Shown: positions 4,264 through 26,178, counted from the first letter of the stretch. The stretch is DNA of 55,562 nucleotides from Phycisphaerae bacterium (GCA_029260055.1 JAJDDX010000212.1:1-55562); one strand, 5' to 3'. Notes: a model not told the origin generated them from the letters alone. Translations and numbers: made by a program.

Positions 4264-7170
4264 TTGAGGCACGGTCCGATTAGCAATCGTATCCGGACAT
4301 TTCTCCGGCTCGGCGTGTTCGCGTCGATCGGGGTATGGCCCGGAAGTGGCTTCGGGATCGACAAAGAGCCACCGGAACAGTCCGACGAGAAGACCGAGGT
4401 CGTCGCGTCTCTGTCTGACGTGCGCGAGCTTCTTGTGGCGGGCGACTACGAGCCCGCTATCGAGGGGTTCACCCGACTGCTCGAGGACGTTCGGCACGGC
4501 GACAAGGCGCGGGTCGGTCTTGCCGAGGCGCTGACGGCCGTCGGCCGGTACGACGAGGCGATCGAGACGCTGTCCGGCAAACAAACGGAAGCGTCGGCGG
4601 ATGCGCGATGGCTACTCGCTCGTCTGTACAGGATCACGGGGAGATACGATGACACGCTCGCTCAGTGTAGAGCGGCGATCGAGATTGATTCGGCCCACGC
4701 TTCCGCCCGTCTGGTGCTCGGTGAGACGTTGGAGCTGCTCGGCCGGCGGGGCGAGGCGGTCGAAGCTTACAAGTGGTTCGACCGACAACTCGTTCAACTC
4801 GACGAATTACCGCGTGATGCCCGGTGGCTGACCGACACGGCGCTGGGCTTCTATCGATACAGTGTGTTGACGCAAACCGACGTGGCGCGTCGCACGCAAC
4901 ACGTGCTTCATGACATGCTCCAGCCCGCGTACGCTCGGGTGGATCGTACGTATTGGCCCGCGCGGATCGCGGCAGCCAACCTGCTGCACGAGAAGTTTAA
5001 CGATGCGGAGGAGGACGGCAGCGTAAGCGATTACGAAGCCGCCCTGAAGATCAACCCGAATCTCTGCGAAGCGCACGTCGGATTGGGGGACGTGGCCCTG
5101 TCGCGTTGGGATTTCGAGGAGGCCGAGCGGCGTGCCGAATTGGCGCTGGCGGTGAATGCGGCGCACGCGCCCGCTATTCATCTGAGAGCGTCGACACTGA
5201 TTATGGAGCGCCGCTATCGCCAGGCACTCGATGAGATCGACAAGGCGCTTTCGATCAACAGCGACGACTTGACCGCGCTATCGATCCGGGCGGCTGCGGG
5301 CGCCTGCCTCTACGATCGAGCCATCCTCGAGAAAGCCCGGGGGCGCGTGGCCAAGGTGAACCCGCGTTGCGCCTTGCTCCACAAGATACTCGGCGACGCC
5401 GTCGGCGGCATCCGGCAGTACCCGGAGTCCGAGCGGGAGTACCTCGTGGCCATGGAATACGATCCGACGGACGCGAACGTGCGTACCGAGTTGGGTCTGA
5501 TGTACATGCAATGGGGCAAGGAGGACAAGGCGCGTGAGGCGCTCGACGGTGCGTGGGTCCTGGACCCCTACAATCAGAAGACGAAGTTCACGCTCGAACT
5601 GCTCGATTCTCTCGAGGGGTACGCTCGCCACGAGACGGCGCATTTCATCGTGCGGCACGATGCCACGCGTGATCCGGGGCTCGGCGAATACGTGGCTGCC
5701 TATCTCGAAGAGATCTACGAGGACGTGGTGGGAGACTACGAGTTCCCACTTTCCGAGAAGACGATCGTCGAGATGTTCCCGACCCAGCGGGCCTTCGCGG
5801 TGCGGATTACCGGCAAGCCCTGGATCCACACGGTCGGGGCGTGTACGGGCCGGGTCATCGCGATGGCATCGCCGCGCAAGTCGACGGATCTGTCCGGCCC
5901 CTACAACTATGCATCAGTGCTCAAGCATGAATTCACGCACACGGTGACGCTGGCAGCCACGCAAAACCGGATCCCTCACTGGTTCACGGAGGGACTTGCG
6001 GTGTTCCAGGAAGATGCCGAGCGCGGTTTCTTCTGGTGCCAACTGCTTGCGGAGGCGGCGAGGAGAGACGAGCTGTTCACGCTGGAGTCGATCGACTGGG
6101 GTTTCATCCGGCCGAAGAAACCGACGGATCGGCAGATGGCGTATGCGCAGAGCGAGTGGATGTGCGAATACATCGTCGAGCGGTTCGGCTACGAGTCATT
6201 CAATGCGATGTTGCGGCGATTTCGTGAGGGGCAGACGCCGCGGCGCGTCTTCGTGGAGCAGCTCGGCATCGAACCGAGCGACTTCGACGCGGCCTTTGCG
6301 GAATGGGCGAAAAGAGAGATTGCCGGATGGGGCTTTGAATCGACGCCGCCGGAGGATGTCGACGAGCTGCGCCGGGCGCTTCAGGAACGACCTGATGATG
6401 GTACGCTGATCGGGCGACTGGCCAGGGCTGAGTTCGATGCCGAAGAGTGGGACGAGGCACTCAAGAGCGCCCGCCGGGCGCTCGAGCTGGATCCCAAGCA
6501 GGTCAGTGCTCTGGATGTACTGGCGAACGTGCTGGTTCGGTACGCCAAACAGGAGCTGATGGCCCCGGCTCGGGAGGCATACCTGGAAGAGGCGGTGGCT
6601 GTGCTGGACCGACTGTGGGTCGCCGATCCGAAGGGCGCCACGGCCCCGAGGTACCTGGCTGAGATAGCGTTGTCGCGTGGTGAGCCGGAGCGCGCGCGCG
6701 AGCCGCGCGAGCGCCGTCAGCGGGTCTGCCCCCGGGACCCGGCGAGTTGGCGCGGGTTGGGCGGTCTCCACCTCCAGGCCGGGAATTACGACGCAGCGCT
6801 GCCCCAACTGCTGGAGCTCGCCCGGATAGACGAGAATGACGTGGGTGTTCACGCACAGCTCGGTCGGATCTACAAGGCGAAGGGGCGGCTGACCGAGGCA
6901 CAGCACTGGTATCGACAGGCCTTGTACGTGAACCCCTTCGACGTGGAGGTTCACGACGCGCTGGGTGAAGTGAGCATGCGAATCGGCGACACTCGAAGCG
7001 CATTTCGTGAGTACAAGATGCTGACCGAGCTGGAGCCGGGCAACGGGAAGTTCCTGGAAAAAGCGGCGTTTGCCGCTCACAAGCTCGGAGATACGGAGCA
7101 GGCCCGGGCCCTGGCGAAAAGGGCGGTTCAGATAGCTCCGGCGTCGCCTGCGCGATCGCTGCTGCCGTGA
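4264..7170 (+). CDS. Exported TPR protein with an internal peptidase-MA-type metallopeptidase domain
   Basis: A 968-residue protein with three parts. N-terminal TPRs (about 45-440) have helices such as YDDTLAQCRAAIEID. A gluzincin-like domain (about 455-690) carries the zinc motif HEFTH (555-559) followed by FTEGLAVF, with Glu576 as likely third ligand; this is the peptidase_MA_2 arrangement. A second TPR block (about 700-960) follows. The first 35 residues look like a signal peptide, so an envelope or periplasmic location is likely. The start is a TTG at 4264 with GGAG ten bases upstream; no in-frame ATG nearby gives a better choice. A TACAAT box at 4207-4212 may be its -10. The substrate is unknown; TPRs on both sides suggest it docks on a protein partner. 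It precedes a kinase/phosphatase pair by about 330 bp. Confidence 0.8.
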   Translation: MRHGPISNRIRTFLRLGVFASIGVWPGSGFGIDKEPPEQSDEKTEVVASLSDVRELLVAGDYEPAIEGFTRLLEDVRHGDKARVGLAEALTAVGRYDEAIETLSGKQTEASADARWLLARLYRITGRYDDTLAQCRAAIEIDSAHASARLVLGETLELLGRRGEAVEAYKWFDRQLVQLDELPRDARWLTDTALGFYRYSVLTQTDVARRTQHVLHDMLQPAYARVDRTYWPARIAAANLLHEKFNDAEEDGSVSDYEAALKINPNLCEAHVGLGDVALSRWDFEEAERRAELALAVNAAHAPAIHLRASTLIMERRYRQALDEIDKALSINSDDLTALSIRAAAGACLYDRAILEKARGRVAKVNPRCALLHKILGDAVGGIRQYPESEREYLVAMEYDPTDANVRTELGLMYMQWGKEDKAREALDGAWVLDPYNQKTKFTLELLDSLEGYARHETAHFIVRHDATRDPGLGEYVAAYLEEIYEDVVGDYEFPLSEKTIVEMFPTQRAFAVRITGKPWIHTVGACTGRVIAMASPRKSTDLSGPYNYASVLKHEFTHTVTLAATQNRIPHWFTEGLAVFQEDAERGFFWCQLLAEAARRDELFTLESIDWGFIRPKKPTDRQMAYAQSEWMCEYIVERFGYESFNAMLRRFREGQTPRRVFVEQLGIEPSDFDAAFAEWAKREIAGWGFESTPPEDVDELRRALQERPDDGTLIGRLARAEFDAEEWDEALKSARRALELDPKQVSALDVLANVLVRYAKQELMAPAREAYLEEAVAVLDRLWVADPKGATAPRYLAEIALSRGEPERAREPRERRQRVCPRDPASWRGLGGLHLQAGNYDAALPQLLELARIDENDVGVHAQLGRIYKAKGRLTEAQHWYRQALYVNPFDVEVHDALGEVSMRIGDTRSAFREYKMLTELEPGNGKFLEKAAFAAHKLGDTEQARALAKRAVQIAPASPARSLLP

Positions 7171-9295: not shown

Positions 9296-10729
9296 CTACT
9301 TCGCGAGCCTGTGACCTTCGTCGCCGGCCAAGCCTCGGACCGAAGCCTCGCTGAACACATCGTCCGCCTCGATTCGGTAGTGCAAATGCAGGCCGGCGCG
9401 GTACTGCTCCGGCTCATGCTGCCGGCACCATGCGACTGTGGCCTTGACCCAAACCGGGGCGGGCTGTGCGTCGATTCGTACGTGCAACACCTCTCCACGG
9501 AACATCGGGTGGGGTGATCGGATACAGAGTCCGGATCGGGACACGTCGTGAACCGAGGCGAGGAACTCGTTGTCGGCAGCGCTGACACCGGAGAGCCGGC
9601 CTGCGTATATGCATCGCACGCGCGAGTCTTTGCGACAGACATATCGCACCTGGCGTGAGCCGACATTCTTCGGCGGCGATGGATTCTTGAGGTGTTCGTG
9701 CCGGGACGAGGTGTCACTGCCGCCGGGCGGCGGTGCGATCAGCGACTCGGCCTCGATGAACTCGGTCGAGCGCTCGCACAAGTCGAACCAGCATGCGAGA
9801 TACTCGGGGGCAAACTGTCTTCCGGATTGCTTTTCCAGCAGTCGGTTGGCATCGTCAGCCGTAAGAGGATCGCGGTACGAACGCATTCCGATCATGGCGT
9901 GGAACGAATCGACGATGGAAAGAACCTTGCTCCCGTCCAACAGGTCTTCCTCGCCGACGCCGAGCGGATAGCCGAGGCCGTCCAGGCGCTCGTGGTGTTG
10001 AATGATCATCTGCTTCATGTCCGGTGTGACGTTGGGGTCGCTACCGATCAGCCGGACCGATTCGATGGGGTGCTGTTGAAGCAGCAACACTTCGTCTTGC
10101 GTCAAAGGTCCGGTCTTCTGGAGTATGGCCGGGTCAACCGCCAGTTTGCCGATGTCGTGGAGCATACCGGCCAGGCCCAGTGCGCGAAGGACCTCGCGAT
10201 CCGGACCGAAGACCTCCGAACCTAAGAGCACGGCGAGCATCGACACCATGTACATGTGGCCGGCCGTCGAGCGATCGTGCTCCGCCATCTGGATGAGGTA
10301 GGCCCCGGCTGCCGGATCGTGCAGCAGGCCGTCGATCATGTTGTCCACGACGCGCGCGGCGCGGTCGCAACTGCCTTCGACCCGAGGATCGTTGATGAGC
10401 GATGTGGCCACCGAGACGCCCGCTTTGTGTCCGAGTTGAGCCTTGTCTTGCGGCGCCAGATCGGCACGGCTGAGCAACTCGGCGAGTCGGGATTCCAGGG
10501 AGCCCCCGATGCGCTCGAGGTCGCCGTCACGCACGAAGAGGTAGGGCACGCCGCGGGCCCGAACGCGTTCGAAGTCCGGCGCAGCCACACCGTCTCCCGC
10601 CTTGCGATAGAGCACCGGTTCCTTGCCGTTGGCACCCGGCAGATAGAGCTCGAAGTCGCAGGCGTCGGTCTGCGCAAGCGCTTCCGCGGCCGTGGCGCTT
10701 AGTGGTACGTAGTGGGTGCGCTCCTTCAT
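9296..10729 (-). CDS. HD-GYP domain protein with C-terminal PilZ domain
   Basis: A 477-residue cyclic-di-GMP protein. After an N-terminal region without clear family (1-115) comes an HD-GYP phosphodiesterase domain (about 145-320) with HDIGK (191-195), HHE (245-247) and DGLGYP (250-255), essentially the canonical signature. The C-terminal part (about 360-470) is PilZ-like: RKDSR (366-370) and DVSRSG (395-400) fit RxxxR and D/NxSxxG, which bind cyclic-di-GMP. One protein therefore both hydrolyses and senses the messenger. The start is the ATG at 10729; a TTG five codons upstream (10744) is possible. Neither has a strong ribosome binding site. It converges with the phosphoesterase gene, 36 bp between stops. 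Confidence 0.9.
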   Translation of the reverse strand: MKERTHYVPLSATAAEALAQTDACDFELYLPGANGKEPVLYRKAGDGVAAPDFERVRARGVPYLFVRDGDLERIGGSLESRLAELLSRADLAPQDKAQLGHKAGVSVATSLINDPRVEGSCDRAARVVDNMIDGLLHDPAAGAYLIQMAEHDRSTAGHMYMVSMLAVLLGSEVFGPDREVLRALGLAGMLHDIGKLAVDPAILQKTGPLTQDEVLLLQQHPIESVRLIGSDPNVTPDMKQMIIQHHERLDGLGYPLGVGEEDLLDGSKVLSIVDSFHAMIGMRSYRDPLTADDANRLLEKQSGRQFAPEYLACWFDLCERSTEFIEAESLIAPPPGGSDTSSRHEHLKNPSPPKNVGSRQVRYVCRKDSRVRCIYAGRLSGVSAADNEFLASVHDVSRSGLCIRSPHPMFRGEVLHVRIDAQPAPVWVKATVAWCRQHEPEQYRAGLHLHYRIEADDVFSEASVRGLAGDEGHRLAK

Positions 10730-11104
10730 CGAGTAGAGTATCAAATACCGCGGGCCGGAGTGAGAAACCGAAATGGCTCGTGGAATCCGCCTTTGTTGGA
10801 GTCCGGGAAGAAGTGCCCGGAGCGGCGCGGAGCGTCATCCGAGGTGTGTCGAGTTCAGCGCGAACCGGCCGCGATTCGATAACGTGTGAAGAGTCCGATC
10901 GTCGTTCACGGGCGGCGATTTCTGCTTGAGTGCGGTTGGGCATTTGCCGATTCGTCAAGCGCCTCCCGTGTGTCCGCGCCGGTTCGAGCGACTCCGTCTT
11001 GAATGAGGCGGGCTTTATCGGTCCCGGGAATCACGTCCGTTGGTGTCGCGCGATCCGACGCAAGTTGACTGCAACTGAAGCACGGGGCATCGGAATGCGT
11101 TCGT
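10730..11104. other. Gene-free stretch upstream of HD-GYP gene
   Basis: Divergent region upstream of the HD-GYP gene. Frames crossing it are short, arginine/serine-rich and overlap on both strands; none is supported. No clear promoter box pair was found. A remnant reading frame begins near 11105. Confidence 0.4.
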
Positions 11105-11355
11105 CGGTGCTGCGGCCGCCCGTTCGACATCCAGGTGGTAGATGTCGGCCACATCGAAGCTCCCAACGAAGCGCGCGAGCCAATGGAGTCAGTCGATGTG
11201 GCCTGCGCGTTACGGCTGTGTGGTGCGACTTCGGCGAGCTGATTACCGAGGTCGATGCGCACGGCATGCGGAATGCGGCCGGCGATCGATACCTCGGCCG
11301 TGGCTTCGAGTTCGATCGGCTAGTTGAACAACTGCCGACGCCGGGTGACACATGA
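11105..11355 (+). pseudogene. Possible frameshifted small gene, PilZ-like remnant
   Basis: Two adjoining frames read like one ordinary protein. In one frame (codons in register with 11102) the translation includes FDIQVVDVGHIEAP and EPMESVDVACALRL, then stops at about 11240. In the frame ending at 11355 it continues as FGELITEVDAHGMRNAAGD then RYLGRGFEFDRLVEQL. The final stop overlaps the ATG of the downstream kinase (ATGA at 11352-11355), as coupled genes do. The tail GRGFEFDRL resembles the GxxF end of PilZ domains, but the N-terminal RxxxR is not seen. It could be a decayed gene, a sequencing error, or chance. Confidence 0.3.
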
Positions 11356-13478
11356 TCACCGCAGATCAAGGCAACGTTCTGATCGTCGACGATACGCCTC
11401 CCAGCCTCGCACACCTGGCACGGATCCTCGAGGCCGAGGGCTACCGGGTGCGCCCCGCGACGAACGGGCCACTCGCCCTTCGGGCCGCCGAGGCGGAGCC
11501 GCCGGATTTGATCCTGCTCGACGTCAAGATGCCCGACATGGACGGGTTCGAGGTATGCCGGCGTCTGCGGGCGATGGCCGGCACGCGTGAAGTTCCGGTG
11601 ATCTTCATCAGCGCGCTCGATGACACACGCGACAAGACGATCGCCTTTGAAGTGGGCGGCGTGGACTACATCGGCAAGCCCTTCCAGCCTGAGGAGGTGT
11701 TGGCGCGCGTCAAGGCCCACTTGTCGCTTCACCAAATGCGAACGCAACTCGAAAGGAAGAACATCGAGTTGCGGGAGGCGCGCAACCAGTCCGAAGAAAA
11801 GGTCCTGGAGCGCACCGCCGAACTCGAGGAAGCCAACACTGAATTGCGAAGGGAGATCGCCGAGCGTGCGCGCGCTGAGGAGGAGCTGCACCGCCTCGGC
11901 CTTGCCGTAGAGCAGGGAAGCGACACCATCGTCATCACGGATACGGAGGGAACCATCACTTATGTCAACAGGGCTTTCGAGAACGTGACCGGGTACTCCC
12001 GGGAGGAGGTGATCGGGCGGAATCCACGGATGATCAAGAGCGGGGAGCATGACGAGGCCTTCTATCGTGAGCTTTGGGAGACGATCGCTCGTGGAGAGGT
12101 CTGGACCGGACGATTCGTCAACAAGAGGCGGGACGGATCGCGCTACGTCGAGGACGCCACGATCTCACCGGTGCGCGACGCGTCAGGTACGATCATCAGC
12201 TATGTGGGTGTCAAGCGCGACGTTACGCGGACGCTTCAACTCGAAGAACAACTCCACCATGCGATGAAGATGGAGGCGGTGGGGCAGCTCGCAGGTGGGG
12301 TGGCCCACGATTTCAACAACCTGCTGACGGCCATCACGGGGTACGCGGAGCTGGCGCGGACTGCCGTGGGCGAGAATCGAAAGGTCGGCGCGATGTTGGA
12401 GGGCATCGAGGACGCTGCTCAGCAGGCCGCCGGTGTGACACGGTCACTCCTGACCTTCAGCTGCAAGACGGCTGCGAAGAAGGAGCGTGTCGAGCTTCAC
12501 GGCCTCGTCGAGAAAACCGTTCGACTCTTGAGTTCCGCGCTTCCGGCAGGAATCGACCTGTCCACAGAGCTCCCGGGGGGACCACCGGTGTGGGTGCTCG
12601 CGGACGCCACGCAACTCCAACAGGTTGTGATGAATCTGGCGATCAATGCGCGTGATGCGATGCCCGACGGTGGAAAGCTGCGGATTTCGGTGACGCTCGA
12701 CCGATCCGTCAAGACGGAGGGAGCCGCGGCTGCGTCCGTCGGCGAGCCCTCCGCTGCCGGGGCCGTGGCTCGTCTGGTGGTGGCGGACACCGGGGTCGGG
12801 ATCGGAAAGGGAGTGCAGGAGCGGATCTTCGAGCCGTTCTTCACGACGAAACCGCGAGGACGGGGAACCGGGCTGGGGCTCGCCATCATCCACGGAATCG
12901 TGACCGATCACGGCGGCCGCATCGAGGTCCGGTCCGAGGTCGGACAAGGGGCCGAGTTTACGGTGACGCTTCCCGCGCTCGAAGTCCCTGCTGAAATCGA
13001 GCCCCACGGACAGGGAGCGGTGGCGGTGACGGGGCACGGCGAACTGGTGGTCCTCACCGAGGACAGTTGGCACGTCCGGAGGATTCTAGCCACGGCACTG
13101 ACGTCGCGCGGCTATCGCGTGATCGAAGCGCATGACGGTCCGTCGTTGATCGAGTCCTTTCAGCGGTTTCGGGACGAGATCCGGCTCTTCGTCACCGACG
13201 TAGACCTTCCGAGACGCGGCGGGCTCGATTGCCTGCGCGATTTCAGGAGCCAGGGCGTTCGAACACCGGCGATCATCATCACCGGCGGAGTGGACGCCGA
13301 CGTGGAGGATCAGCTCGACGAACAGATGGTATTGCTGCGGAAGCCATTTCAGGTGTGCGAACTCGAAACCTTGGCTGGCCGCCTTCTCGGAGCCGAGAAG
13401 GAACAGGAACAGGAGTCGATGAAGGGTGTGTCGGTTGGGTCGGTATCGTCGGTCGCGACGGGTCATACCGGCGCCTAG
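11352..13478 (+). CDS. Hybrid histidine kinase: receiver-PAS-HisKA-HATPase-receiver
   Basis: A 708-residue cytosolic sensor kinase. Domains: N-terminal receiver (6-120; Asp57 in [11 protein letters not shown], Lys109 in GKPF); coiled coil (about 125-185); PAS (about 185-290; [16 protein letters not shown]); HisKA with [17 protein letters not shown] (phospho-acceptor His319); HATPase with [20 protein letters not shown] and GTGLGLAI; C-terminal receiver (about 560-690; [10 protein letters not shown]). There are no transmembrane segments, so the PAS domain should sense an internal cue or a ligand. The N-terminal receiver means another kinase may feed into it. It heads an apparent operon with two MEDS proteins and a second hybrid kinase. 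Confidence 0.93.
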
Positions 13479-13498
13479 CCAGAAAGTGAGAGTGTCAA

Positions 13499-14314
13499 AT
13501 GGGTGTTCGCGGACGAGTGGTCGGCATGGGGTTCACGTGTGGGTCCTTTCCGGAGGGGACGCACATGTGCCTCATCTACGATGATGAAGAACAGCGGCTC
13601 AATATCATTTCGAAGTTTATCGAGAGCGGTCTGGTGTCGCGAGAGAGGGTGGGCTACTTCGCGGACGAGACTGAGCCCGAGCGGGTTTACGAATGGCTGG
13701 AAGAATCGGGTGTTGACACGTCCGAGCCGCGGCAAGACGGCCGCTTCCAGGTGCTCGCTGCCGAGGATGTCTATTGCCCGGATGGGGAGTTCGTCCCGGA
13801 GAAGATGCTGGGCCGCCTCCGCGCAGGCTACGATGATGCGATCGGCTGTGGTTGCCCCGGTATCCGGGTCAGTGGAGAGATGTCGTGGGCGCTGCGCGGC
13901 CTCCCGGGGTGTGATCGACTCATGGAGTACGAGGCCCTCGTCAACGACGTCGTGTCAGAGTATCCCGTGACCGCAGTATGTCAGTACGACGCTCGGCGGT
14001 TCGACGGGGCGACGATCCTCAACGTGCACAGGGTGCATCCCATGATGATCGTGGGCGGGCAGATCGTCCGGAATCCCTACTACATGAGGCCGCAGGAGTT
14101 CCTCAAAGACCGTCCATCCACGGCCCTCAACCGGGAAGACGCGCGGCCCGTGGAGGCTGTCTGGCCGCACGGTCGGCGCGCCGTCACCGAAGGGGCGCGC
14201 GACCGTGGAGGCCGGTCGATGCGAGATGTTCTACCGTCGCCGGGTTCGGGCTTGTCGCCGATCTGCGGAGCCCGCGAGGGTCGAGCAGGCGACCGGCGCG
14301 GCGAGACGCTTTGA
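13499..14314 (+). CDS. MEDS-domain (DcmR-type sensory) protein, paralogue 1
   Basis: A 271-residue protein whose first 210 residues form a MEDS domain, the KaiC/RecA-related sensory domain named after DcmR of methylotrophs and methanogen regulators. Markers shared with the next gene: FPEGTHMCLIYDD, AAEDVYCP, VSGEMSWAL, CQYDARRFDGAT, and VHPMMIV with NPYYM and PQEFL. No DNA-binding or kinase domain is attached, unlike most family members. The last 60 residues, after PQEFLKD, are arginine/glycine-rich, differ from the paralogue and may be read-through of a lost stop. The ATG at 13499 has only a weak AAGTGAGAG ahead; the ATG at 13526 is an alternative. It sits 20 bp after the hybrid kinase. Confidence 0.8.
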   Translation: MGVRGRVVGMGFTCGSFPEGTHMCLIYDDEEQRLNIISKFIESGLVSRERVGYFADETEPERVYEWLEESGVDTSEPRQDGRFQVLAAEDVYCPDGEFVPEKMLGRLRAGYDDAIGCGCPGIRVSGEMSWALRGLPGCDRLMEYEALVNDVVSEYPVTAVCQYDARRFDGATILNVHRVHPMMIVGGQIVRNPYYMRPQEFLKDRPSTALNREDARPVEAVWPHGRRAVTEGARDRGGRSMRDVLPSPGSGLSPICGAREGRAGDRRGETL

Positions 14315-14330
14315 CGAAAGGAGACGGCTC

Positions 14331-14972
14331 ATGCCCACAACAAGAAGAGAGATCACGCTCGGGTCCTCGTGCGATCACTTTCCCGAGGGCACGCATATGT
14401 GCCTGATCTACGACGACGATGAACAGCGCAAGACGGTCCTCGCGAGGTTCCTCGCAGACGGGGTCACCGAGGGAGAGCAGGTCGGTTACTTCACGGACAA
14501 GACTGACGCGGATGAAGTCCGTGACTGGGTGGCGGAGTGCGGCGTGGATTTGGACGACACGGATCGGGACGACAGGTTCGGTGTGTACACGGCGGAGGAT
14601 GTGTACTGCCCCGGCGGGCGGTTCGTCCCGACGGGCATGCTCGAGAGATTGGGCGGCGCCTATGATAAGGCCGTGAGTGCCGGCTTCGTCGGCGCGCGCG
14701 TCAGCGGCGAGATGTCTTGGGCGCTCAAAGGCGTTCCGGGCTCCGAGTGCCTTGTGGAGTACGAAGCACGCATCAACAACATCAGCGAGACACAGCCCGT
14801 CACGCCGATCTGTCAGTACGATGCCCGTCAGTTCGACGGGGCTACGTTACTGAATGTGCTCAAGGTGCACCCGATGATGATCGTACACGGTCAGATCGTG
14901 CGCAATCCGTACTACATGAAGCCGCAGGAGTTCCTCGAGGAGTTCCGCCCGACAGCCTCCGCTTATGGCTAA
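14331..14972 (+). CDS. MEDS-domain (DcmR-type sensory) protein, paralogue 2
   Basis: A 213-residue protein consisting of a MEDS domain only, clearly homologous along its length to the preceding gene product (shared EGTHMCLIYDD, AEDVYCPGG, VSGEMSWALKG, CQYDARQFDGAT, VHPMMIVHGQIVRNPYYM). It ends soon after PQEFLEEFRP, which probably marks the true end of the domain. The ATG at 14331 is preceded by AAAGGAGA at good spacing. The stop overlaps the start of the next kinase gene by eight bases. MEDS domains in DcmR and methanogen proteins sense small molecules and usually feed a fused output. Here the natural partners are the two flanking kinases; this is inference from position. Confidence 0.85.
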   Translation: MPTTRREITLGSSCDHFPEGTHMCLIYDDDEQRKTVLARFLADGVTEGEQVGYFTDKTDADEVRDWVAECGVDLDDTDRDDRFGVYTAEDVYCPGGRFVPTGMLERLGGAYDKAVSAGFVGARVSGEMSWALKGVPGSECLVEYEARINNISETQPVTPICQYDARQFDGATLLNVLKVHPMMIVHGQIVRNPYYMKPQEFLEEFRPTASAYG

Positions 14973-16914
14973 CGCGATCGAGGCCAATCTCAGGGAGCGG
15001 TACCGGGACCCGAAGAAGCCCGCCCATGATCCGCGTGTCCTGGGAGAGCTCCTTGCCACGCCCACCGTACTGCTCGTCATGCCCAGCGCCCAGCGTGTGG
15101 CCGAGTTCACCGCGCAGGCGATGATCGCGGTGCCCGGCGTCATCGGATGCCGGGCATGTCTGCGCGGCGCATCGGCACATGCCGGTAAGTTTCCGCTGGA
15201 CACGTGTGGGGAGTGTGAGTTCGCCGATTTCGGCGCCGGCGAGTCGAGCACTACCATCCCGCCCTGCCCGGCAGCGGGGCTTCCCGGGCTCCACGTGATT
15301 CCGCTGACCACGACTGACCACGCGCACGGGAGTCTGGCGCTGGCGATTGACCTGCCAAAGGTCTTCGGCGTCTACGAGCCATTCCTCGTCAACTTCGCCA
15401 ACTTCGTCGCGCTCGTTCTCGAGAGCCGGTTGCAGAAGGACCTGCTGTTGAAAGCGAAAGAGGAAGCGGAGTCGGCGAGTCGGTACAAGAGCGAGTTTCT
15501 GGCACGGATGAGTCACGAACTCCGGACGCCGATGAATGCCGTCCTGGGATACAGTCAGCTCATGGCTAGGGATCCCAGTGTCACCGACAGCCAGCGAGAA
15601 TTCCTCCAGACCATTCGAAGCAGCGGCGAGCACTTGCTGGACCTCATCAACGACGTGCTGGACATGGCCAAGATCGAGGCCGGCCGCACCACGCTGGATG
15701 TGGCGGATTTCGATGTGCATCAATTGCTGGATGAACTCGACAGCATGTTCGGATTGCGCGCCCGCGACAGGGATGTGCAGATTCGTGTCGAGAAATCGCC
15801 CGGGCTTCCCCGGTGTATTCGAAGCGACGAACGACGGCTGCGGCAGGTCATGATCAACCTGCTCGGCAACGCCGTGAAGTTTACCACGGAGGGGGCCGTG
15901 ACCGCGCGCGCGTCGTATGCCGAGGACGGGAAGACCGAGGGGGCAGCGGCCCGACCGTGCGGGCGTCTGTACGTCGAGGTCGAGGATACCGGGCCCGGCA
16001 TCGGTGCGGATCAGTTGGGCTCGCTGTTCGAGGCGTTCTACCAAGCGGATGTGGGTCGAGCGGTTCCGGAGGGGACGGGGTTGGGCCTCGCGATCAGCCA
16101 GCGGTTCGTGCACCTGATGGGCGGTAAGATCACCGTCGAGAGCGAAGTCGGTCGGGGAAGCGTCTTCAGGTTCGACATCGACGCGCCGCGAGGCGAGTTC
16201 GTGGAACGCCGAAGGCGCACGTCGGAGCGGCGCGTCGTCGGGCTCGACAACGGCCAGCGCTCGAGGCGCATTCTCGTGGTCGAGGACGTAACGGCCAACC
16301 GTGATTTGCTGGTTCGCCTCTTGGAGACGATCGGGTTCGAGGTGCAGTCGGCCGCGAACGGCCGCGAGGCTGTCGAGAAGTGGCGGGCGCTGTCACCCGA
16401 GCTGATCTGGATGGACGTACGCATGCCCGTGATGGACGGGCTCGAAGCCACTCGCCGTATCAGAGCCGAGGCGGGCGAAGGCTCTCCCGTGATCATCGCG
16501 CTCACGGCCGGCGCGTTCGCGGAAGATCGAGAGGAGGTGCTGGCGGCGGGATGCGACGCTTTCATCCGCAAACCCGTCCGTGAGGACGAACTGTTCGCGG
16601 TGATGGCTGAGCATCTGGGGGTTGAATACCTCTACGAAGATGAGGCGCCGTCCGCGGCCGGCGGAGTGGCGCTGGTCGCTCTGTCGAAAGAGGATGTAGC
16701 TCGTCTCCCTTCGGGCTTGTTGAGCCGGATGCGTGACGCGGCGGTCCGGCTGGACGTCTTCGCGCTGAACGAGCTGAGCGCCGAAGTCGAACGCTGTGAT
16801 TCAGGCGTCGCTGCAGGCGTTCAGGGTCTTGTCCAGCGGTACGCGTTCGATCGGCTGAATGAACTTCTCGCACCGCCAAGTGAAGCGACAAATGCGCAAA
16901 GCACGCCACTCTAG
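14965..16914 (+). CDS. Hybrid histidine kinase with Cys-rich GAF-like sensor and receiver
   Basis: A 649-residue cytosolic kinase. The N-terminal 150 residues look GAF-like and hold five cysteines in two CxxC pairs plus one (Cys62, Cys65, Cys81, Cys84, Cys101), in CRAC and CGEC. Then come a short coiled coil, HisKA with SHELRTP (His184), HATPase ([26 protein letters not shown]), and a receiver (about 430-555; MDVRMPVMDG, IRKPV). The final 90 residues are helical and unassigned. It overlaps the preceding MEDS gene by eight bases, so translational coupling is likely. The cysteine pattern could bind metal, an iron-sulfur cluster or haem, or act as a thiol switch; the sequence does not decide which. 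Confidence 0.92.
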   Translation: MANAIEANLRERYRDPKKPAHDPRVLGELLATPTVLLVMPSAQRVAEFTAQAMIAVPGVIGCRACLRGASAHAGKFPLDTCGECEFADFGAGESSTTIPPCPAAGLPGLHVIPLTTTDHAHGSLALAIDLPKVFGVYEPFLVNFANFVALVLESRLQKDLLLKAKEEAESASRYKSEFLARMSHELRTPMNAVLGYSQLMARDPSVTDSQREFLQTIRSSGEHLLDLINDVLDMAKIEAGRTTLDVADFDVHQLLDELDSMFGLRARDRDVQIRVEKSPGLPRCIRSDERRLRQVMINLLGNAVKFTTEGAVTARASYAEDGKTEGAAARPCGRLYVEVEDTGPGIGADQLGSLFEAFYQADVGRAVPEGTGLGLAISQRFVHLMGGKITVESEVGRGSVFRFDIDAPRGEFVERRRRTSERRVVGLDNGQRSRRILVVEDVTANRDLLVRLLETIGFEVQSAANGREAVEKWRALSPELIWMDVRMPVMDGLEATRRIRAEAGEGSPVIIALTAGAFAEDREEVLAAGCDAFIRKPVREDELFAVMAEHLGVEYLYEDEAPSAAGGVALVALSKEDVARLPSGLLSRMRDAAVRLDVFALNELSAEVERCDSGVAAGVQGLVQRYAFDRLNELLAPPSEATNAQSTPL

Positions 16915-24972: not shown

Positions 24973-26178
24973 ATGAACACGAAGCATTCCACACGGTACA
25001 TTGTCCTGGCCACTTCGTGGCTCGTCCCTGCGTCGGGCGCGTTGTACGCGCAGACCCCGCTGACCACGGGGTTCACCTATCAGGGACAACTCAAGCAGAC
25101 CGGCGTCCCGCTGACCGGGACGGCCGACTTCGAGTTCAGCCTGTGGGACGCCGTCGGTGCCGGCGATCCGCCCACCGGCGGCAATCAGGTCGGCTCTACG
25201 CTGAGCGTCCCGGCGGTAAGCGTCAGCAACGGCCTGTTTACCACCACGCTGGACTTCGGCGTGGGCGCAATGAACGGTCGAGCCCGCTGGTTGCAGATCG
25301 GTGTGCGCTCGCCCGCGGGCGGCGGCGCCTTTACCACCCTGGCTCCGCGCCAAGCGATCACCGCCGCCCCCTATGCCATCGCGACGCTCGACCGCAACGC
25401 GCCCGCGGCGGCGTCGAGCTACAACTATGGCCTCCTGGGGGGCCTTGAAATCCAAAAATGCGTCCCTGACGACCAAAGTGACGGAAACCCGTGCCAGTCT
25501 AGGGTCGTACTCAGCGTCGGCCTGGCTGAGGGGCAGACGCTATGGCTGGAACACAGGCAGGACAGCCATCCGACAGAGGAGCTCCTGATAGCCATCACGA
25601 AGGTGGAAAGAGCCGGGTCGCCAGTGCCGGGCTTCTACGACGTAGAGATCGACTGCGTGGGGTTTCCGCACGCGCTGAGCTTCTCGGTCTCCCCGGATCA
25701 GCCGATCTATGCCTCATGGAACGATCCCGACCAGTCAAACTCGCTAAGCATCGAAGCCAGGCTCATAAGCGATAACTTGCTTTGGCTAACGCTCAGGCCT
25801 GGTCAAATCCATATGTTAACCAGCGAGTCTTCGGGGGTGATCATCGAAGCCCACGTCGAGCCGTACGAGCCTGCTTCCCGGGTGGTGCAACTGCAGACAC
25901 TTATAGGCAATGTCGGTCAATGGTCGGCGAACTACGTGGTTACGGTGACGGAATGTAGTCCCACCATCGCACCCGTCGTGGCGCAGTGGATCAGGATGGA
26001 CTCCGCGCAGGCCCCGACGCTGACGTTCGACGTGCGGTCGAGCGAACCGTTCACCGGCGGCGAGGCATGTACGCTGACGCTGATGTCGCCGGACGCATAC
26101 ATATACTACGAAGTGCCGGTCGTCTTCCCGCCACCGTCGCGGAGCCCAGAGCGAGGAACCACGGGAGGCACGCCATGA
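24973..26178 (+). CDS. Secreted protein of unknown function
   Basis: A 401-residue protein with a signal peptide (cleavage near ALYAQ, residue 27). Residues 30-140 contain GFTYQGQLKQTGVPLTG then LFTTTLDFG, and APRQAITAAPYA, a domain recurring in planctomycete exported proteins, usually at the N-terminus of long surface proteins; no function is known to me. The remainder has no recognisable family and a different feel (fewer repeats, more acidic). The ATG has CGGAG at ten bases. Its stop overlaps the next ATG (ATGA at 26175-26178), so the pair is translationally coupled. Confidence 0.75.
   Translation: MNTKHSTRYIVLATSWLVPASGALYAQTPLTTGFTYQGQLKQTGVPLTGTADFEFSLWDAVGAGDPPTGGNQVGSTLSVPAVSVSNGLFTTTLDFGVGAMNGRARWLQIGVRSPAGGGAFTTLAPRQAITAAPYAIATLDRNAPAAASSYNYGLLGGLEIQKCVPDDQSDGNPCQSRVVLSVGLAEGQTLWLEHRQDSHPTEELLIAITKVERAGSPVPGFYDVEIDCVGFPHALSFSVSPDQPIYASWNDPDQSNSLSIEARLISDNLLWLTLRPGQIHMLTSESSGVIIEAHVEPYEPASRVVQLQTLIGNVGQWSANYVVTVTECSPTIAPVVAQWIRMDSAQAPTLTFDVRSSEPFTGGEACTLTLMSPDAYIYYEVPVVFPPPSRSPERGTTGGTP

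Follow-up and report, generated by a model that had tools for sequence, protein, structure and literature searches.

Stand-alone MEDS proteins and a GAF-like kinase domain form a conserved gene pair and a candidate split sensor-kinase module

MEDS domains are widespread and normally form part of larger proteins, and the way in which they pass on a signal has not been established. KaiC-SasA is a case of control in trans, in which a KaiC-fold protein acts on a histidine kinase through the N-terminal domain of the kinase. The nearest known arrangement to the locus described here is the EtnR2/EtnR1 pair of Mycolicibacterium chubuense NBB4, found in ethene-oxidising actinobacteria. In this pair, the stand-alone MEDS gene (EtnR2) lies directly upstream of the gene for a CdaR/PucR-type effector (EtnR1), with 4-10 bp between them; the same layout occurs on a plasmid of Nocardioides JS614. 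Control of the etn cluster has been ascribed to this pair, which has been described as having typical two-component features (PMC8784404). EtnR1 consists of a small, possibly GAF-like N-terminal domain that matches no assigned family and a DNA-binding PucR helix-turn-helix effector, whereas the corresponding protein in our locus, HK2, is a hybrid kinase. MEDS is coupled to a histidine kinase, as proposed here, in the fused MEDS kinases of Methanosarcina, haloarchaea, and many bacteria (PMC5847659; PMC11784639). In the fused proteins, however, MEDS is in cis, is usually followed by a coil and a PAS domain, and is not accompanied by the N-terminal domain of HK2 (HK2N). In this study, we describe a four-gene cassette that probably represents a split sensor-kinase module, in which a stand-alone MEDS protein would act in trans on HK2 via HK2N, expanded here by a second MEDS protein and a second hybrid kinase, HK1. 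With the sensor and the receiving domain on separate proteins, and the partner domain conserved across phyla, contact and ligand become directly testable with purified parts.

The cassette lies in a 55,562-nucleotide stretch of DNA from a Phycisphaerae bacterium (GCA_029260055.1, JAJDDX010000212.1:1-55562), hereafter the window (Table 1). A sequence-only reading had described a receiver-PAS-kinase-receiver protein, two MEDS-only paralogues, and a GAF-like kinase-receiver protein whose gene overlaps the preceding one by 8 bp; these coordinates and domains were confirmed. HK1 and MEDS1 are separated by 20 bp, MEDS1 and MEDS2 by 16 bp, and the overlap of MEDS2 with HK2 spans 14965-14972. The likely start of MEDS2 is the ATG at 14331, which is preceded by AAAGGAG. 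Both MEDS proteins match 161 of the 161 positions of PF14417 (MEDS1, 154.5 bits; MEDS2, 145 bits, end to end; cut-off 29.8). The two sequences share 57% identity, and the whole 7.63-Mb genome has no other MEDS match. HK1 and HK2 are both hybrid histidine kinases: each carries HisKA, HATPase_c, and receiver domains, and the phospho-site motifs around the His and Asp residues are intact. None of the four genes inspected encodes a response regulator bearing an effector domain.

Table 1. Positions of the cassette features, counted from the first nucleotide of the window.
Feature	Position	Strand	Description
HK1, 708 aa	11352-13478	+	REC-PAS-HisKA-HATPase-REC hybrid histidine kinase; H319, D57, D616
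MEDS1, 271 aa, stand-alone	13499-14314	+	core 13529-14122 plus extra C-terminal tail
MEDS2, 213 aa, stand-alone	14331-14972	+	KaiC/RecA fold (predicted), no Walker A
HK2, 649 aa	14965-16914	+	GAF-like N-terminus (HK2N)-HisKA-HATPase-REC hybrid kinase; H184, D484
HK2N, GAF-like domain of HK2	15019-15441	+	specific to split MEDS pairs
HK2N Cys62, 65, 81, 84, 101	codons 15148, 15157, 15205, 15214, 15265	+	

Two extensions were seen in these proteins. The C-terminal tail of MEDS1 (about 70 aa; 14122-14314, +) has no counterpart in its relatives and is perhaps a frameshift product or the remnant of a lost gene. HK2 continues for about 90 aa past its receiver (16630-16914, +); this tail is helical-looking and HPt-like, with no obvious phospho-accepting His by eye. 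The other genes identified, among them a PF07638 ECF sigma factor and serine/threonine kinases that bear WD40 or TPR repeats, point to Planctomycetota as the probable phylum. Contamination was ruled out as the origin of the contig: the window RecJ is 53-68% identical to that of same-family genomes and 33-42% identical to that of the Myxococcota and Chloroflexota genomes compared.

A single scan of 84,980 genomes yielded eight further MEDS relatives, and a search for the gene order of the window added two more close relatives (L020 and L021; L047 and L048 are the corresponding larger stretches). An HK2N-only search uncovered new stand-alone MEDS genes directly upstream of the kinase gene at three loci (L046, L050, and L052). 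Altogether, 13 loci pair an HK2N kinase gene with an intact stand-alone MEDS gene immediately before it (the window, L011-L017, L046-L048, L050, and L052); this count includes L015, whose MEDS gene is truncated where the contig begins. The open-ended reading frame of L015 had raised the suspicion of a natural MEDS-HK2N fusion, which was rejected, MEDS and kinase being in different frames. The 13 loci come from Planctomycetota-like, Myxococcota, and Chloroflexota genomes, and the distance from MEDS to the HK2N gene is about -17 to +130 bp. HK2N-bearing kinases span 392 to 1831 aa; behind HK2N there may be HK only (392-395 aa), HK-REC, PAS-HK-REC, or longer forms up to 1831 aa. Because this kinase portion varies, the linked unit is MEDS and HK2N rather than MEDS and a particular kinase. 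Exceptions occur on both sides: genome G525 has an HK2N kinase and no MEDS gene, and stand-alone MEDS genes with no adjoining partner kinase were found in G463 (two extra genes) and G826 (one). L018 had been taken for a MEDS gene in a genome lacking an HK2N partner; this was ruled out, as a complete pair is present on another contig of G463. At L053 (G805), which the HK2N-only search also uncovered, a decayed MEDS remnant upstream of a broken HK2N (both within 5171-5943) represents a decaying copy of the module.

HK2N is rare. With a profile (A4) applied to about 10 best candidates per genome, so that all counts are lower bounds, it was detected in at least 7 of 379 genomes in the phylum of L012, at least 1 of 400 in the phylum of L014, and no other genome of a 343-genome sample of the phylum of the window. 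A plasmid search for HK2N gave no match. Among the 379 genomes of the L012 phylum, MEDS was present in 22, HK2N in at least 7, and both in at least 5, compared with 0.41 expected (hypergeometric p = 8e-6, with genomes treated as unrelated). MEDS and HK2N distance matrices were correlated (r 0.80, Mantel p 1e-4). Such a correlation is as expected of co-inherited partners, and neighbouring genes are co-inherited even in the absence of contact.

All four genes also adjoin on one strand in a Myxococcota genome (G456, locus L011), in the order MEDS-MEDS-HK2-HK1, with HK1 at the opposite end compared with the window; the four-gene set is therefore not unique to the window genome. The expectation that the four-gene order is conserved in other genomes thus held in part: the genes stay together in L011, but their order is permuted there, and at the other loci conservation is limited to the MEDS-HK2N pair. 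HK2 is 51% identical to its L011 counterpart over 626 residues, and HK1 is 49% identical from the N-terminal receiver onward. In the MEDS tree, MEDS1 pairs with L011_a (99/94) and MEDS2 with L011_b (92/80); hence, the tandem MEDS pair predates the split of the two cassettes. Vertical descent does not easily explain this likeness, because G100 and G102, from the same family as the window genome, hold a far more divergent form (about 40%). Judged from these identities, horizontal transfer would account for the resemblance, and the module is apparently horizontally mobile.

Whether HK1 belongs to the module has to be weighed at this point. It could be an unrelated neighbour and the MEDS copies a simple tandem duplication, leaving only MEDS2-HK2 as a module. 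HK1 is found beside an HK2 orthologue in two genomes only, most loci consist of MEDS-HK2N alone, and hybrid kinases are abundant, with 197 candidate HK1 matches in the window genome at first look. However, of the HK1 matches in the 34 other genomes searched, the highest-scoring one (599 bits; runner-up, 414.5) is the very neighbour of the L011 cassette, in which each MEDS copy also has an orthologue of its own. We regard this restricted reading as a serious possibility that falls short of being favoured.

The AF2 model of MEDS2 (pLDDT 86) has a KaiC/RecA fold, matching KaiC, FlaH, and RecA chains with Z 13-15 and rmsd 3-3.7 over 158-181 residues. The Walker A motif is absent from all 11 MEDS sequences examined; by eye, YDDDEQRK occupies the place of the KaiC P-loop. 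The model and the missing motif agree with the view of MEDS as an inactivated KaiC (PMC5847659). HK2N matches no Pfam family, and the L011 domain reaches 13.7 bits against GAF_3 (cut-off 27). Its AF2 model (pLDDT 79) nevertheless has a GAF fold (KdpD GAF 4y2f, Z 12.2, rmsd 3.0 over 129 residues), which bears out the earlier label "GAF-like" for the HK2 N-terminus, though there is no Pfam GAF match; the top Foldseek rows were mostly GAF, with an E of only 6e-3. The comparison with KaiC-SasA has two differences: MEDS is without Walker A, and HK2N is GAF-like whereas the SasA domain is thioredoxin-like.

All 8 of the 8 core-clade HK2N domains have Cys62, 65, 81, 84, and 101 unchanged, and these residues could together make up a metal, Fe-S, or redox site that is optional to the domain. 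GAF being a common ligand- or cofactor-binding fold, HK2N itself might do the sensing, through Cys-based redox chemistry, a metal, or Fe-S, with MEDS as an accessory that delivers or edits a ligand or holds the kinase oligomer. This is somewhat unlikely, since the cysteines, located in and near a loop whose length or sequence differs in Cys-poor members (shortened or altered), are wholly or mostly lost at five loci (L047, L048, L050, L051, and L052), four of which keep the MEDS partner. As several HK2N domains lack the cysteines, a metal site is not essential.

The comparison of split with fused MEDS proteins bears on whether MEDS and HK2N work together. None of 25 fused MEDS reading frames contains HK2N or its related Cys-less domain; MEDS is mostly followed there by a coil and PAS or HisKA. 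Outside the HK2N clade, stand-alone MEDS genes are mostly followed by an effector with a small N-terminal domain. In G018, G584, and G456 (contig 56), the effector is a kinase with a Cys-less N-terminal domain homologous to HK2N (hhalign 94%, E 1e-7); in G759, it is a PucR-type regulator; and in G836 and Caballeronia, it is a kinase with a small N-terminal domain by eye. The annotated start of the Caballeronia kinase (L096, 4634-4943) is probably too late, as the open frame back to the end of MEDS adds a GAF-like N-terminus. For the N-terminal domain of EtnR1 against HK2N, hhalign gave a probability of 17-19% and an E of about 1e-3. Haloarchaeal plasmid MEDS genes were considered as more split cases, and the four of four checked are fused. 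This complementary split/fused pattern is the strongest argument from sequence for joint action of MEDS and the N-terminal domain.

Alternatively, MEDS and HK2 could share a pathway without touching, with the genes clustered for co-expression or joint transfer and MEDS acting on another target, e.g., a regulator of sigma factors, the role suggested for MEDS proteins of the RsbA type. RsbA-family anti-sigma regulators have a similar MEDS region, yet the resemblance is weak (68.7 and 53.8 bits, far under the NCBIfam cut-off of 210) and no fused anti-sigma kinase domain is present in the cassette. Co-inheritance alone would explain the mirrored trees, and some stand-alone MEDS genes are without a partner kinase, as noted above. 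We consider the no-contact explanation unlikely, given that the link to MEDS is kept by HK2N and not by the remainder of the kinase, and that fused MEDS proteins are without HK2N.

Because a stand-alone MEDS and an HK2N kinase recur as a unit, action of MEDS in trans is the most economical reading; the MEDS-then-effector layout shared with EtnR2/EtnR1 also speaks for it. Beyond the observed gene content, predicted folds, cross-phylum conservation, co-occurrence, and mirrored trees, we infer contact, ligand, direction of control, and the role of HK1 as follows. The stand-alone MEDS, a degenerate KaiC fold with its ATPase site lost, would bind a small molecule and dock on HK2N of the kinase encoded immediately downstream, and docking would switch autophosphorylation of the kinase. 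MEDS would thus serve as the subunit that binds the ligand or exerts allosteric control, and the GAF-like domain would receive its signal on the kinase side; where HK2N has the five cysteines, there may be a further metal, Fe-S, or redox input. In the window genome and its Myxococcota relative, the module would be enlarged by a second MEDS protein, with the two perhaps forming a hetero-oligomer, and by HK1, which probably takes part in phosphoryl exchange with HK2 or has an output regulator in common with it.

Overall, the comparisons point to a conserved split sensor-kinase module that is a variant of known MEDS signalling, with a well-motivated putative contact in trans. A bolder formulation, which we put forward only tentatively, is that of an undescribed, horizontally spread class of split kinases. 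In such a class, an ATPase-dead KaiC-fold protein would act in trans on a dedicated GAF-like domain (five-Cys and possibly metal- or Fe-S-binding in one clade), a logic like that of KaiC-SasA without the clock, and the two MEDS proteins and two hybrid kinases would form one relay. The module also suggests a reading of EtnR2/EtnR1 other than the two-component view, since the EtnR2 MEDS protein shows no kinase domain.

The sequence-only reading had entertained a one-carbon or small-molecule relay. Sensing of one-carbon or simple hydrocarbon derivatives, which the MEDS name suggests, is very unlikely: two MEDS regulators do have links to such metabolism, DcmR to that of dichloromethane and EtnR2 to that of ethene (PMC8784404; PMC11507031), but no one-carbon, hydrocarbon, or other metabolic genes are conserved around the loci, where the neighbours found include c-di-GMP enzymes, kinases, and unrelated housekeeping genes. 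Divergent from HK1, the window encodes a protein with an HD-GYP-like HD domain (HD_5) and PilZ (9296-10744, -), through which the cassette might have a c-di-GMP output. Genes for c-di-GMP enzymes lie near the window cassette, L012 (REC-GGDEF-EAL before MEDS), and L014 (GGDEF genes around it); these three are too few for a conclusion on output.

Further downstream in the window, after the gene for a reprolysin/beta-helix protein, a 401-aa open reading frame (24973-26178, +) matches HAP2-GCS1, the gamete fusion factor (PF10699), over residues 254-373 (49 bits; cut-off 27.4). In the PDB, its sequence has only weak matches, three of them to HAP2 entries and the fourth to an uncharacterized chain. 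It would be unusual for a bacterium to encode a fusexin-like domain.
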